From assembly GCA_027491075.1 (NCBI GenBank), contig JAIXWX010000034.1, forward strand, positions 1 through 64,000: a stretch of DNA of 64,000 nucleotides, read 5' to 3'. Both the position numbers and the translations under genes were made by a program. Origin of the DNA: Flavobacteriales bacterium (lineage in GTDB: Bacteria; Bacteroidota; Bacteroidia; Flavobacteriales_D; Sanyastnellaceae). The notes below the pieces were generated by a model. The model was not told the origin of the DNA and did no database searches. It saw nothing but the letters and a program-made list of their open reading frames with translations. Below, piece by piece: positions 50,493 to 55,727 of the stretch (within the stretch, counting starts at the first letter, position 1; the number at the start of each line of letters is the position of its first letter).

Positions 50493-51509
50493 GTGAAAAT
50501 CAAAAGAACTCTTGTTGCAAAAGGAATTGAAAATTATTCTGTCAACGAATCACTGGCTAAAACACATCTCCCAATAGCAGGAGATCTGGGTCTTTTTAAA
50601 ATCATAGAGATTGGTAAACACCGCAATGCTCAAGGAGATCAGGGTAGAAACGTGGCTATTTTTCCAGGAGATTACTTAGTTGCGGCATTTGCTGATCGTT
50701 ATGCAACCTCTCAATATGAAGGGTATGTTCCTAAGGAGCACAGAGATTTTTATCATGTCATTGGTGCAGGTGGGGTCATAGGTATTGTTCATTCGCAAAA
50801 TGCTTCTTTAGATTACATCGAACCAACAAAGGTGGAACTAGTAGGATATTGCTGCAATGAGTCGAATCAAATCATAAATACTAAGTTCTATCAAAAGACA
50901 AGAACCTCTTTCACTGGAATAGTTCCTGCTGGAATGAAAATAGTATTGAGCATTGGTAGCACAATGGATAGCGGCAAAACAACGACTGCAGCCCACGTCG
51001 CAAGGGGACTTAAAACCACTGGCAAGAACGTTGGATTTATCAAGTTTACAGGAACCGCTTATACAAAAGACCGCGATTATGTCTTGGACTGCGGAGCAGA
51101 CGTTGTTGGCGACTTTAGTGACTTTGGTTTTCCTTCTACCTTCATGTGTGAGAAAGAAGAATTATTGGATTTGTATCAATCACTTTTAGAAAATATGGCT
51201 GCTAAAGGATTGGAGCTTCTGGTGATGGAAATTGCAGACGGTATATGGCAAAGAGAAACGGAATTCTTGCTGAGAGATAAAGCTTTTATGAAAACAATTC
51301 ATAGTGTGGTGTTTTCATGCGGCGATAGCTTAAGTGCAATTCAAGGTGTTAAATCACTTCGAGAAATGGATATTCAACCAGTGCTAGTGAGCGGAAGATT
51401 TACCATGAGTCCATTGTTGATTACAGAAGTAAAAAATCATTTACCTTTACCCGTATTGACGATTGATGAAATAATGACTGGTGAATTCAATCACTTGATG
51501 TTGAATTAA
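50493..51509 (+). CDS. P-loop NTPase of the MobB/BioD/DUF1611-like class, role unknown
   Basis: A 338-residue cytoplasmic protein starting at GTG. Residues 1-145 are a beta-rich domain with GRNVAIFPGDYLVAAFADRY and HVIGAGGVIG. Residues 148-338 are a P-loop domain: Walker A GSTMDSGKTT at about 155-164, then TTGKNVGFIKFTGTAYTKD, and an acidic MEIADGIWQRET segment that could be the Walker B-like site. The arrangement resembles MobB, dethiobiotin synthase and DUF1611 proteins, but no characterised family is matched with confidence. It starts four bases after the T9SS gene and is followed within four bases by the ABC gene. Confidence 0.6.
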   Translation: MKIKRTLVAKGIENYSVNESLAKTHLPIAGDLGLFKIIEIGKHRNAQGDQGRNVAIFPGDYLVAAFADRYATSQYEGYVPKEHRDFYHVIGAGGVIGIVHSQNASLDYIEPTKVELVGYCCNESNQIINTKFYQKTRTSFTGIVPAGMKIVLSIGSTMDSGKTTTAAHVARGLKTTGKNVGFIKFTGTAYTKDRDYVLDCGADVVGDFSDFGFPSTFMCEKEELLDLYQSLLENMAAKGLELLVMEIADGIWQRETEFLLRDKAFMKTIHSVVFSCGDSLSAIQGVKSLREMDIQPVLVSGRFTMSPLLITEVKNHLPLPVLTIDEIMTGEFNHLMLN

Positions 51510-51513
51510 AGAA

Positions 51514-53109
51514 ATGGATACCAAAACAAGGCAAATTGTCCGAATTTTTTTCAAAGAAAAATGGACGTGGGTTTCAACCTTGTATTTTTTCGGGATGATC
51601 GGAGCATTTGCAAATGTTCTCCTTCCGGTAAGTATCGGTGGCTTGCTTTCAATTATTGATGAGTCAAGTTCTACAAAAGCCAGGTTGTTTGAATTGATTC
51701 CTTTTCATCCAACTAGCATGGATGCATTTTTCTTATTTTTTGCAACGCTGTTAGTTCTTCGAATAGTTTCTGTATTCATTATTGAGTCTTTCGGAAAACG
51801 CCTCAGCGAAAGCCTGGTGTTCCGTTTGCGTGTTGCTCTTTTCGAAAGATTAACACTGATGAAGTTAAATACAAAAAATCACAGCGAAAGTGCAAAATCA
51901 AGTCAACGGTTTTTCAATGAAATGACTTATTTGAAATCGTGGCTGACAAAGTACATTTTTGGAGCTCCTATAGATGTTATGGTCTTATTGGTTTCCCTTG
52001 CATTAATTACTGCATTAAGCTGGAAAGTTACTTTGGTTATTGGTGGAATAATTCTTTTTTTTACGGGAATTTCTATTTTTATTGCAAGATTTATAAAGCA
52101 AGATACTCAACTCAGAAATGAGAAAAGATCAAGCATGATGAGGTCTGTTTTACATTTTACAGATAATGCGCTTTCCTTTAAAGTCTTGAATCGTGAAAAA
52201 TTGGCTTTAGAAGAATTCACTCAGTCAAGTGAGGCTTTCTATGAATCCAATTTGCCTTTGAATAATAAAAAGGCAATGCTCGAAGCATTGCAGCCTTTAC
52301 AAGTCTTCTTGATTATCGGATGGATTCTGCTTTACTTTTCTTATGTTTCAGTGGAAAGAGACCCGTCGTCAATGATGACTTGCGTGCTATTGATCTTGTA
52401 TTCCCAAGGTCCTTTAAGAAGATTAACTCGCATACCAGCGATTAGAGCGCAAGCCAAGTTGTCGTTTGCGTCTATCGAACGTCAATTAAACAAGAATGAG
52501 GAAAGTAAGGAAAGACGAAAAGATCTACCAACTTCATACGGACTACTTTTCTGGGAGGACGGTTTTGTACAACCAAAAACAAGCGTTTTTCTTGAAGGAA
52601 AATCTGTAATCCTGGAGGAATGGTTTAGTGCTCTTTCAGGGCTTTCAAGAAAACGTATCCAGATCAGTTTGGACAATAAGAATATCGATAACATTGAGCC
52701 TTTCGAACTAAGAAGAAGAATCGCATTCGTACATTCGAGTATTGCCCTTTTAGGCGATTCGATCTATAAGATTATTAGCTATACAGCAAGTGAGGAAAGA
52801 AGTGAGGCAGCATTGAAAATGCTTACTAAACTGAACCTAAGATTGCCTGAAAATGCACTGAATGGAAGTTTGAAGGATGTGGAGAAGCTGAACAATACCG
52901 CCTATTTTTGGAAGTTGAGCTTGGCAAGGGCATTCTTTAGCAAGAAAGAAATAGTTTCCATAACCTTGCCATGGGATGAATTGAATGAGGATGATTTGCG
53001 TGTCATTGTCTCTTTTGTCAACGCATATCGTGGCAAAAGAACCATTTTACTGCTTGGCACAAGCTTACCAAAGGATCTGTTGATTGATAAGAAAGTACAA
53101 TTGAAATGA
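51514..53109 (+). CDS. ABC exporter-like protein with a degenerate nucleotide-binding domain
   Basis: A 531-residue protein. Residues 1-310 are a six-helix ABC type IV exporter membrane domain (FANVLLPVSIGG, KRLSESLVFRLRVALFERL). The remaining 200 residues align with an ATPase domain, but the catalytic motifs are gone: the P-loop is deleted, so that VFLEG runs straight into KSVILEEW near 357-368; the signature LSGGQ is LNNTAYFWK near 458; and Walker B is VSITLPWDE near 482-490. Structural landmarks survive, such as FELRRRIAFVHSSIALLGDSIY and LSLARAFFS. It overlaps the next gene by four bases. It may be a pseudo-transporter, a scaffold, or one half of a heterodimer whose partner is elsewhere. 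Confidence 0.8.
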   Translation: MDTKTRQIVRIFFKEKWTWVSTLYFFGMIGAFANVLLPVSIGGLLSIIDESSSTKARLFELIPFHPTSMDAFFLFFATLLVLRIVSVFIIESFGKRLSESLVFRLRVALFERLTLMKLNTKNHSESAKSSQRFFNEMTYLKSWLTKYIFGAPIDVMVLLVSLALITALSWKVTLVIGGIILFFTGISIFIARFIKQDTQLRNEKRSSMMRSVLHFTDNALSFKVLNREKLALEEFTQSSEAFYESNLPLNNKKAMLEALQPLQVFLIIGWILLYFSYVSVERDPSSMMTCVLLILYSQGPLRRLTRIPAIRAQAKLSFASIERQLNKNEESKERRKDLPTSYGLLFWEDGFVQPKTSVFLEGKSVILEEWFSALSGLSRKRIQISLDNKNIDNIEPFELRRRIAFVHSSIALLGDSIYKIISYTASEERSEAALKMLTKLNLRLPENALNGSLKDVEKLNNTAYFWKLSLARAFFSKKEIVSITLPWDELNEDDLRVIVSFVNAYRGKRTILLLGTSLPKDLLIDKKVQLK

Positions 53110-53495
53110 AATACTTATTGATGTTGATTACCATTGTTTTCCTTGGATGTAAAAAGGAAGCTGGAGAAGGCGGGAACGCTAGAATTTATGGTAAAATCTT
53201 AGAAGCAGATTACAATAGTGATTTTACAGTATTGATTTCAGAATTGCCGGCCACAGATACCTATGTCTATATCAAGTATGGAGCAAAAGGAGAGGGATTC
53301 GATGACAGAGTGAAAACGGACTATGAGGGAAATTTCCGTTTCGATTTTCTATACCCAGGAGATTATGAATTATATGTCTACAGCCGTGATAGTTCATTTC
53401 AAAATTTGTCGGGAGAAACTGTGGTAAAACAAGTGGTGAAGATTGAAGGTCGAAAAGAGTCTGTTCAGGCTCCAACTATGACACTATTCAAGTAA
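53106..53495 (+). CDS. Small lipoprotein with a carboxypeptidase-regulatory-like fold
   Basis: A 129-residue lipoprotein (lipobox FLGC, Cys15). The rest is a single beta-sandwich-like domain with KTDYEGNFRFDFLYPGDYELYVYSRDS, the usual pattern of a carboxypeptidase-D regulatory-like module. It overlaps the upstream ABC-like gene by four bases (ATGA) and precedes the next gene by two, so translation of the set is coupled. No specific role is recognised; lipoproteins of this type often assist outer-membrane complexes. Confidence 0.72.
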   Translation: MKYLLMLITIVFLGCKKEAGEGGNARIYGKILEADYNSDFTVLISELPATDTYVYIKYGAKGEGFDDRVKTDYEGNFRFDFLYPGDYELYVYSRDSSFQNLSGETVVKQVVKIEGRKESVQAPTMTLFK

Positions 53496-53497
53496 AT

Positions 53498-54052
53498 ATG
53501 AAGAATATATTTGTCATCTTTTTTTTGTTGCCAATTGTCGCATTCTCGCAAGGATCGGAGCAAATTAGAAACAGAAAGATTAAAGAAATAGTGACTATCG
53601 AGTTCCATAAGGAGAATGAAGATGAAAACAGAAAGATCCATGATTTTTATGATAAGAAAGGAAGATTGATTGAAAGAAAAGTATTTAGATCGAACGGCGA
53701 GTTGCGTTTTCATAAAAAAATTCAATACTTGGATCGAAATGGAAGTAATGAAGAGATCATCTTGGATTTGCCTTCTGGAAATGTGAAATCAATCACTATT
53801 CGGCACTTTAATAAATGGGAAGATGAAGTAAAAATGGAAAAGCGAGATGGCCAAGGCCGTGTTGACCAGTCAAAGATTTGGGAATACGATAAAAAAGGTA
53901 GGCTCATGAAGCTAGTCACTTATGGCCAGAATGGGGTAGTTATATCTACAAGATCCTTGGTCTATGATAAGAAAGGTATGATTTTGTCTGATAGTACAGT
54001 GGATCCACAGGGTAAAATAATTGAACAAACAACTTTGCAGTATACCTATTGA
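53498..54052 (+). CDS. Exported repeat protein with YDKKGRL-type motifs
   Basis: A 184-residue protein with a signal peptide (MKNIFVIFFLLPIVAFSQ) and repeated short beta-hairpin motifs: FYDKKGRLIERK, YLDRNGSNEE, EYDKKGRLMKLV and VYDKKGMILSD. These resemble RHS/YD-type or MORN-like repeats of secreted Bacteroidota proteins, but the array is short. It lacks a sorting domain, so it is probably periplasmic. The stop overlaps the TTG start of the following gene. Confidence 0.65.
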   Translation: MKNIFVIFFLLPIVAFSQGSEQIRNRKIKEIVTIEFHKENEDENRKIHDFYDKKGRLIERKVFRSNGELRFHKKIQYLDRNGSNEEIILDLPSGNVKSITIRHFNKWEDEVKMEKRDGQGRVDQSKIWEYDKKGRLMKLVTYGQNGVVISTRSLVYDKKGMILSDSTVDPQGKIIEQTTLQYTY

Positions 54053-54714
54053 AAAAGCTAGTTTTAATAACACTTTTAGCGTTAATCTTGAAAAGCGTCT
54101 TTTCGCAGCAAAGTGATTTTGTAATCATGCCACAGTTTGCTTTACGATATCAGCAATCGCGATCTCTCTATTTTAAATTTACGCAGCAAGCTCTTTTCAA
54201 CGAAAACGCAACAGAGTTTTGGATGTCTGGTGCCGACGGCGGTATTGGCATTCGAATAAATGAACACTTTAGCACAGAACTTCATAGTCGATGGGTTCAG
54301 TTTAAATCACCGAGAAATATAATCGAATCAAGAGCCCTTTTCTTTCACACCATTTCCTATAATAATAGAATAGGGAAGGTTCACTTTACCCTAAGAAATA
54401 GAGTACAGCAATTAGTATTTGTGGAGCACCTTAATGATCAGTATAGAAATCCAAGATGGTATAATCGCTTGAGATTTACTGCTTCTCATCGCCTGAATTA
54501 TTATTACGGTGTAGGGGTGAACACGGAGTTTTTTTATCCCCTAAATAATCCGAGTCGAAAGACGATCGATCAAATGAGAATCGGTGCTTCTGTGGAAAGA
54601 AAATTTAACGAACACTGGGAAGTATCGATCGGATATCAACTGCAGCAACTATTAGCCAGAGTTGGAAATAATCGTTATTTTGTGGCTTCTTTTCAAACAA
54701 CTCTTAGTCTATGA
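54049..54714 (+). CDS. DUF2490-like outer-membrane barrel protein
   Basis: A 221-residue protein starting at TTG that overlaps the previous stop. It has a signal peptide (LKSVFSQ, about residue 20) and a series of amphipathic strands with ELHSRWVQFKSPRN, RNRVQQLVFVEHLND and RWYNRLRFTASHRL, ending in FVASFQTTLSL. This layout fits the DUF2490 family of small outer-membrane proteins. In the context of the upstream exporter-like protein it could be the outer-membrane exit or a structural protein, which is inference only. Confidence 0.65.
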   Translation: MKKLVLITLLALILKSVFSQQSDFVIMPQFALRYQQSRSLYFKFTQQALFNENATEFWMSGADGGIGIRINEHFSTELHSRWVQFKSPRNIIESRALFFHTISYNNRIGKVHFTLRNRVQQLVFVEHLNDQYRNPRWYNRLRFTASHRLNYYYGVGVNTEFFYPLNNPSRKTIDQMRIGASVERKFNEHWEVSIGYQLQQLLARVGNNRYFVASFQTTLSL

Positions 54715-55727
54715 AGAATTTGTTATTTGTCATTATCGTTTTATGCTTGTCTTGCTCTGATTCAGCTTCTGACAAGTCGAAAACGGAGCAGGTGGTCAAA
54801 GAGTTTTTGCCAGTAATCGCACTCCACGGAGGGGCGGGAGACTTGAAAGGATTGAATTTAACACCGGCAGAGGAACAACAATACTTGATCGTTATGGACT
54901 CTGCTCTTCATGTTGGGTATCAAATCTTGGTAAATGGAGGTTCGTCATTGGATGCTGTTGAGTCAGTTATTAAAATTATGGAAGACTCCCCTCTATTCAA
55001 TGCAGGAAGAGGAGCAGTTTTTTCTCACGAAGGCAAAAATGAATTGGATGCTGCAATCATGAATGGACGAAATCAAGATTGCGCAGCAGTTGCTGGTGTT
55101 ACCATTGTGAAAAATCCAATACAACTTGTAAGGCATATTATGGATAGCTCTCGCTTCGTTTTTCTTTCAGGCGAAGGCGCTGAACAATATGCCACGGATT
55201 ACAAAATCCCGACAGTAGACCCATCTTATTTTTTCACACAGAAAAGATGGGATCAATATCAAGAAGCATTAAAAGAAGACAAAGAGAAACTAGATCACAG
55301 TCCATCAAGTGAAAAGAAAATGGGAACGGTAGGTTGTGTTGCATTAGATAGATATGGAAATCTAGCAGCAGGAACGAGTACGGGTGGAATCACCAATAAG
55401 AAATATGGTAGAATTGGAGACTCTCCAGTTATCGGAGCGGGAACGTATGCAGATAATGATGGTGTTGCGGTATCCTGCACAGGGAGAGGCGAAGACTTTA
55501 TCAAGGTTGCAGCCGCTCATGAAATAAACAGTCTAGTAAAATATAAGAAAAAGTCATTGAAGGATGCGGTTGAAAAGACTTTAAAGGAGATCGTCTCAAA
55601 GAAAGGAAGAGGTGGCTGTATAGTATTGGATCAAAAAGGAAACTATTACTTAGGTTTCACCACTTCGGGGATGTTTCGCGGAGTCATCGATGCGCAAGGG
55701 AATAAGTTGGTGAAAATCTATGAGTAG
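54711..55727 (+). CDS. Lipoprotein isoaspartyl peptidase/L-asparaginase (Ntn hydrolase)
   Basis: A 338-residue plant-type asparaginase with a lipobox (LCLSC, Cys15), so it is exported and anchored. HGGAGDL at the N terminus, the autocleavage site MGTVGCVALD with Thr206 as the new N-terminal nucleophile, and GRIGDSPVIGAGTYAD are intact. The family is made as a precursor that cleaves itself into alpha and beta chains and removes beta-aspartyl residues from peptides or hydrolyses asparagine. It overlaps the upstream barrel gene by four bases and is the last gene of the coupled set, 77 bases before the right 53-bp repeat. Confidence 0.9.
   Translation: MKNLLFVIIVLCLSCSDSASDKSKTEQVVKEFLPVIALHGGAGDLKGLNLTPAEEQQYLIVMDSALHVGYQILVNGGSSLDAVESVIKIMEDSPLFNAGRGAVFSHEGKNELDAAIMNGRNQDCAAVAGVTIVKNPIQLVRHIMDSSRFVFLSGEGAEQYATDYKIPTVDPSYFFTQKRWDQYQEALKEDKEKLDHSPSSEKKMGTVGCVALDRYGNLAAGTSTGGITNKKYGRIGDSPVIGAGTYADNDGVAVSCTGRGEDFIKVAAAHEINSLVKYKKKSLKDAVEKTLKEIVSKKGRGGCIVLDQKGNYYLGFTTSGMFRGVIDAQGNKLVKIYE

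Follow-up and report, generated by a model that had tools for sequence, protein, structure and literature searches.

Repeated loss of ATPase motifs in a family of ABC-exporter relatives from a Bacteroidota envelope operon

What does an ABC exporter do when its nucleotide-binding domain (NBD) no longer has the motifs of an ATPase? The question is raised by an open reading frame at 51514-53109 of the window, by which we mean the whole stretch of 64,000 nucleotides analysed here. The frame is the third of seven consecutive + strand genes in an operon that recurs in many Bacteroidota. The features are given below; locus counts refer to a 55-locus table that includes near-duplicates and some loci cut by contig ends.

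47555..50488, + strand: operon gene 1, secreted SBBP beta-propeller protein with a T9SS sorting tail (Pfam PF18962, PF06739; 24/55 loci)
50493..51509, + strand: operon gene 2, P-loop (SIMIBI/DTBS-like) protein with an N-terminal beta-rich domain and the motif GSTMDSGKT
51514..53109, + strand: operon gene 3, ABC-exporter relative with a dead NBD, 531 codons, no stop
51514..52488, + strand: transmembrane domain (TMD) of the exporter, residues 1-325
52516..53106, + strand: NBD-like domain of the exporter, residues 335-531, predicted fold kept
52597..52605, + strand: Walker A remnant G362-K363-S364 with the loop deleted (sequence and model)
52888..52914, + strand: position of the LSGGQ signature, now LNNTAYFWK (residues 459-467)
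52954..52980, + strand: position of Walker B, now VSITLPWDE (residues 481-489)
53106..53495, + strand: operon gene 4, lipoprotein-like, 129 aa (weak CarboxypepD_reg, below cut-off; 26/55 loci)
53498..54052, + strand: operon gene 5, 184-aa protein whose N-terminus looks secreted (24/55 loci)
54049..54714, + strand: operon gene 6, DUF2490 protein, probably an outer-membrane barrel (PF10677, E 2.2e-14; 27/55 loci)
54711..55727, + strand: operon gene 7, beta-aspartyl peptidase (Asparaginase_2) with a lipoprotein-like N-terminus (PF01112, E 1.8e-105; 32/55 loci)

Gene 7 also matched NCBIfam NF007589 at E 4.3e-86, under the cut-off of that model. No report of this operon was found in open-licence PubMed Central titles and abstracts. 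At other loci a DUF2490 protein lies just upstream, over the Pfam cut-off in L105, L106, L107, L110 and L151 and just under it in L117; the upstream proteins of L104, L112 and L150 gave no DUF2490 match (Pfam, 10 proteins; L154 was already counted). The genes upstream of the P-loop gene in L108 and L109 differ from the usual SBBP or DUF2490, and two L108 ORFs of 265 and 196 aa are, judged by eye, presumably VTC/DUF4956-type proteins.

By its ABC_membrane fold with long cytoplasmic helices, the protein is a relative of the type IV ABC exporters (ABCB/MsbA-like). Residues 25-300 match PF00664 (ABC_membrane) at E 1.6e-17, while Pfam returned no match to PF00005 (ABC_tran) at E<=0.1. The nearest named family in NCBIfam is MsbA (TIGR02203), at E 1.3e-16 and far under its cut-off, and PaMsbA aligns at E 6.3e-6. 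An AlphaFold2 model built on 37 sequences has a mean pLDDT of 85.5 and a pTM of 0.77. TM287/288 ranks first for this model in Foldseek (TM-score 0.80 by query length), and TmrAB ranks first in VIA-align (Z 25.8, 511 of 531 residues, rmsd 3.2). Since the TmrAB match runs over the whole length, and full exporters align through residue 531, the NBD fold is kept in the predicted structure.

The catalytic parts within this fold are gone. In the model a strand at residues 357-361 (SVFLE) passes via G362-K363 directly into a helix that starts at S364, so the Walker A motif GxxxxGKS/T has shrunk to 'GK'. Gln of the Q-loop and His of the H-loop are both absent at the aligned positions. Thus Walker A, the LSGGQ signature, Walker B with its catalytic Glu, and the Q- and H-loops are all missing from the window exporter. 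An earlier note on this DNA had described the P-loop, signature and Walker B as lost, and here sequence and model agree; its description of the P-loop as deleted is correct, though the residual GKS stays. The same note had reported an intact frame over 531 codons and had proposed structure prediction as a check on the fold. The frame (+ strand) is stop-free with a coding signature in frame 0, and the model retains the NBD fold. In the NBD half there are no stops in frame 0, compared with 15 in frame +1 and 17 in frame +2; none of 20,000 dinucleotide resamplings was stop-free, and codon log-odds are positive in frame 0 only. The open NBD frame is not due to chance.

We then looked for relatives. 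A protein-level search of genome contigs with the window exporter found nothing, its sequence having diverged too far, and the conserved P-loop neighbour served as the query instead. The P-loop gene occurs in 11 of the 114 genomes of the family, ten of which have an exporter orthologue directly beside it; the remaining one, G019, has a strongly diverged exporter (L099) that was recognised by profile and place. One further genome (G037) has the exporter on a contig that starts inside it, so that the place of the P-loop gene lies off the contig. Matches to the P-loop protein were found in 23 of 399 genomes at the level of the order, that of G117 being only distant, and 33 of 395 genomes of the phylum carry the protein or a distant relative. 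Scanning named genomes with the alignment of P-loop proteins yielded 43 loci (by title 41 Bacteroidota-like, one Armatimonadetes and one Acidobacteria), with an exporter relative near the P-loop gene in 41, lying upstream of that gene in L116. Of the two others, L102 runs into the end of its contig, and in L087 neither strand carries an exporter. Altogether 50 of 55 loci have an exporter close to the P-loop gene; many of the loci are metagenome bins, and L084/L094 and L078/L079 among them are near-duplicates. L095 and L099 are very divergent and were assigned by family-profile scores of 74 and 78 bits together with their place in the operon; L092, L095 and L099 gave no Pfam ABC_membrane match at E<=0.05.

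Several loci deserve separate mention. L087 carries the P-loop gene with no exporter in 15 kb and is nested among exporter-bearing relatives, perhaps as an end stage of loss. The record of L115 is titled Armatimonadetes and has a Bacteroidota-type pair, which may reflect a mis-binned contig or a transfer. Damaged P-loop genes, by assembly error or in reality, were seen in L082 (internal TGA) and L118 (Persicobacter, frameshift); apart from these and a TAG in G215 (L074), the gene is open in the loci seen.

We aligned 51 exporters and scored 50, L119 being cut by a contig end; in the most degenerate rows the placement of the NBD remnants is uncertain. Walker A (GxxxxGK[S/T]) is kept in 22 of the 50. 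It is lost with NBD-like sequence retained in 23, and five (L106, L110, L115, L117, L151) have no NBD at all, so that Walker A is absent in 28 of 50. A family NBD profile run in six frames found no match at E<=1 in the five NBD-less loci (2.5 to 7 kb around the exporter; for L117 1.9 kb, where the contig stops) or in L087, and recovered the control L089 at 2.3e-88. An assembly frameshift as the cause of the NBD-less exporters was rejected on this search and by eye.

At the other extreme, L154 is fully canonical, with GATGAGKST, LSGGQ, LLLDEP, Q-loop and His (PF00005, E 3.7e-35). It is a distant relative that adjoins the same kind of P-loop gene plus a DUF2490 protein, and from it we infer an ATPase ancestor of the family, a canonical root state that is read from this single relative on a long branch. 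Gln occupies the Q-loop column only in L154, L088 and L101, and His the H-loop column only in L154 and L111, the latter within IIKLEHKQN in a protein whose motifs are otherwise lost. Given this near absence of Gln and His, even the members with intact Walker A depart from a canonical ATPase. Of the 21 members that keep Walker A without being canonical, 17 also retain an acidic Walker B with Glu. The window genome also contains a 573-aa exporter beside a 465-aa ORF (L175, G000:C1) in which Walker A is kept, with LLLEDT in the place of Walker B and ISND in that of the H-loop.

The number of losses was estimated on a maximum-likelihood tree of 54 P-loop proteins, 49 of which carry an exporter state; L035, which has no P-loop gene on its contig, was excluded from the count. 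With unordered changes Walker A requires at least 8 steps and absence of the NBD 2. When losses are one-way and L154 is the root, the best tree implies 10 losses of Walker A; collapsing branches under 80 leaves at least 9, and collapsing those under 90 or 95 at least 7. The tree contradicts the idea that loss of Walker A is a quirk of the genus of the window. The nearest relative, L077 of the same genus, also lacks the P-loop and has an open frame; its P-loop partner is 70% identical to that of the window, and its exporter 27.6% in the TMD and 23.9% in the NBD.

Is the altered NBD maintained? The nearest exporter (26% identical) is too distant from the window copy for dN/dS; constraint was measured on relatives, as NG86 values between close pairs:

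Walker A lost, L070/L071: NBD 0.085, TMD 0.028
Walker A lost, L070/L072: NBD 0.075, TMD 0.040
Walker A lost, L071/L072: NBD 0.038, TMD 0.031
Walker A lost, L111/L114: NBD 0.186, TMD 0.133
Walker A lost, L111/L113: NBD 0.336, TMD 0.146
Walker A lost, L113/L114: NBD 0.438, TMD 0.139
Walker A kept, L078/L079: NBD 0.154, TMD 0.087
Walker A kept, L084/L094: NBD 0.072, TMD 0.046
Walker A kept, L085/L086: NBD 0.118, TMD 0.104
Walker A kept, L083/L084: NBD 0.106, TMD 0.050

Ratios are rough where the synonymous distance exceeds ~1 (L070/L072, L071/L072, the L113 pairs and L083/L084), and all three pairs of L073 were saturated in the NBD. Four pairs with dead NBDs gave 0.04-0.19; the other two, both with L113, gave 0.34-0.44 and are the weakest case for NBD constraint. 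Dead NBDs are under constraint, somewhat weaker than that on their own TMD, as is also the case for live NBDs.

These values bear on the possibility that the window gene is simply a decaying pseudogene. Loss of the motifs, fast divergence from L077 and the lack of an exporter beside the P-loop gene in L087 could be read in this way. However, the NBD half has a stop-free frame with a coding signature, the same state is found in relatives with open frames, and dN/dS is below 1 in other dead members; we regard decay as highly unlikely. The suggestion in the earlier note that the change was retained rather than decaying is supported, both by L077 and by the absence of Walker A in 28 of 50 exporters, and the purifying selection that it had proposed looking for in other species is seen in six close pairs of relatives (NBD dN/dS 0.04-0.44). 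It had also held that homologues with intact Walker motifs, combined with lesions or relaxed selection in this copy, would speak against a stable pseudo-ATPase; homologues with intact Walker A do exist (22/50), but the window copy shows no lesion.

The window exporter could also be one half, the degenerate one, of a heterodimer that has its active half encoded at another place in the genome. Six other ABC_membrane proteins of this genome all have Walker A, and degenerate halves are known, as in TM287/288 and TmrAB, the nearest folds. These two, BmrCD and CydDC, each with a degenerate nucleotide site, are among the best structural matches, and they tolerate the loss of catalytic residues. Degenerate-site exporters keep one complete site through the partner. 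The window exporter, unlike them, can form no complete site: with Walker A and the signature both gone, neither composite site can be complete, which makes a heterodimer most improbable. Moreover, no second half-exporter adjoins, either in the window gene order or in the 55-locus table (an extra match in L105 is a 253-aa ORF), and relatives without any NBD exist.

We also examined the membrane domain. D154 and R303 are present in all 44 NBD-bearing family members compared, live or dead. Among 20 canonical exporters (L154 and 19 paralogues), R303 is found in none and Asp at 154 in 7, and E99 occurs in 39 of 49 family members versus 1 of these 20. The five NBD-less forms have D154 in 2, R303 in 1 and E99 in 4. 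D154 is thus not a universal proton site, because three of the five NBD-less forms, which would be most in need of an ion gradient, lack it. D154 corresponds to MsbA residue 149 by offset (74 to 69) and by position 154 of L089, assuming no gap between, and the PaMsbA alignment, counted by hand, sets it on the Glu of REG. E149 belongs to the three acidic residues that were changed jointly in the transport-inactive MsbA-DED (PMC4979069). In intracellular loop ICL1 the motif GKYLLRYSGD, or one close to it, is found in 19 of 21 members with Walker A intact, 13 of 23 with Walker A lost and 3 of 5 NBD-less forms; in the window exporter it has diverged and was counted as lacking.

The gene upstream, 50493-51509, does contain a P-loop (GSTMDSGKT), as the earlier note had said, and that note had asked whether energy or regulation might come from it. 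The protein is confidently modelled (AF2, pLDDT 95.8) and folds like SRP GTPases, HypB and dethiobiotin synthetase (Foldseek), with a beta-rich N-terminal domain; sequence and Foldseek searches gave a fold class only. It resembles DUF1611_C/DgcN and dethiobiotin synthetase in its P-loop (G-x5-GKT) and fold class. Unlike a DUF1611 protein, it falls below the Pfam cut-off (PF07755, E 0.017, 15 bits versus 25) and has the beta-rich N-terminal domain; no DUF1611 match was found in the genome at E<=0.001. DgcN is a DUF1611 protein.

Docking of this protein on the coupling helices in place of the NBD, so that it energises or gates the exporter in trans, would account for the close pairing of exporter and P-loop genes (50 of 55 loci) and for a G-x5-GK[S/T] that is intact in 54 of 54 partners even though 28 of 50 exporters lack Walker A. 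It would also fit the persistence of the ICL1 coupling motif in three of the five NBD-less forms, whereas SLiPTs lack both the NBD and the coupling helices (PMC13316013). Set against this, the window exporter has a diverged ICL1 motif, members with intact Walker A and the canonical L154 share the same kind of partner, and L087 carries the P-loop gene with no exporter. Distant relatives of the partner also occur without the exporter. In 13 of 20 fetched loci from other families (L155-L162, L164, L166-L169) such a relative lies between argG and argC, genes confirmed by NCBIfam in L155, L159, L160, L162 and L166 and assigned by eye from N-terminal sequence in the other eight; L155 also has an argD-family gene (NCBIfam), and two of these argG-argC P-loop proteins, when checked, had no NCBIfam name at E<=1e-5. 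The relative follows an M20 glutamate-carboxypeptidase-like gene in L163 and L076. In L152 and L153 a beta-aspartyl peptidase comes directly after it and the 12 kb taken contain no exporter, a layout that suggests a metabolic core of P-loop enzyme and peptidase. The peptidase of L152 and L153 has no obvious signal peptide.

Because relatives occur without an exporter, as between argG and argC, an enzyme is indicated, and we favour an enzymatic role for the P-loop neighbour over that of a motor. From gene order, the argG-argC relative is possibly an arginine-pathway enzyme of an N-acylglutamate-forming step, and the neighbourhoods suggest that the P-loop protein acts on acidic amino acids. On the question raised in the earlier note, the protein is closely co-conserved with the exporter (50/55), but distant relatives of it are found where there is no exporter. 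We consider energising or gating in trans quite improbable. The fuller proposal, that the ATP motor moved out and a SIMIBI-type P-loop protein took over gating at the coupling helices as the NBD died 7-10 times independently, is if anything a longer shot; if true, it would describe a new split transporter with a non-ABC NTPase.

Another explanation is that the protein carries out no active transport and serves as a facilitator, a receptor or a scaffold for the envelope proteins of the operon. The lost ATPase motifs, the strong divergence of the window exporter from its relatives (14-26% identity, alignment A2) and the fact that the exporter can be missing beside the P-loop gene (L087, L152, L153) are compatible with this. 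A role of this kind does not readily explain why the predicted transporter fold is kept over the whole length, why TMD dN/dS is 0.03-0.15 in the non-saturated dead-NBD pairs, or why D154 and R303 are invariant in the NBD-bearing forms. We think it rather unlikely.

The reading that we prefer, with about even confidence, is a stable pseudo-ATPase transporter in a Bacteroidota envelope operon, probably driven by an ion gradient as SbmA is. The shape has been kept, the ATP parts have been lost, and the losses are repeated among relatives; for these reasons the pump probably runs on something other than ATP. An ATPase ancestor would have lost Walker A 7-10 times, with the whole NBD gone too in five loci. 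The membrane domain would still perform alternating access without a need for ATP, most likely as ion (proton)-coupled secondary transport, and the leftover NBD may be a structural dimer clamp that can fade. The cargo might be a small acidic amino-acid conjugate or a beta-aspartyl compound, moved in one direction or the other between the cytoplasmic P-loop enzyme and the outer DUF2490 barrel and beta-aspartyl peptidase.

Two known systems are closest to this proposal. MsbA is the nearest by sequence, and its NBD-less form, MsbA-MD, moves ethidium on a pH gradient alone (PMC4979069). MsbA itself is a live ATPase that exports lipid A, whereas the window family represents a natural loss in a different operon. 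SbmA/BacA (SLiPT) resembles the NBD-less members in having the membrane domain of a type IV exporter without an NBD, and is proton-driven and derived from an NBD-bearing exporter (PMC13316013). Unlike in SLiPTs, a dead NBD is still attached in 23 of the 28 members that lack Walker A, and the losses are repeated with surviving intermediates. PF05992 (SbmA/BacA) gave no match in the window exporter at E<=0.1 or in the genome at E<=0.001; as a control on 14 genomes, it matched in E. coli and Synechococcus. SbmA/BacA were found only in Pseudomonadota (PMC12003926). The window family is distinct from SbmA, with no PF05992, an NBD that is mostly attached and a different phylum, and is an independent, repeated version with living intermediates.

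The change from primary to secondary transporter has so far been tied mainly to SbmA, traced to a single branch of an NBD-bearing ancestor (PMC13316013). Here the stages stand side by side in one family: canonical, Q- and H-loops lost, Walker A lost, NBD stub, no NBD, and no exporter. Nearly all stages of loss adjoin the same partner gene, and consequently related proteins, several of them from records that carry a strain name, allow direct tests of both the order of loss and the substitute for ATP.
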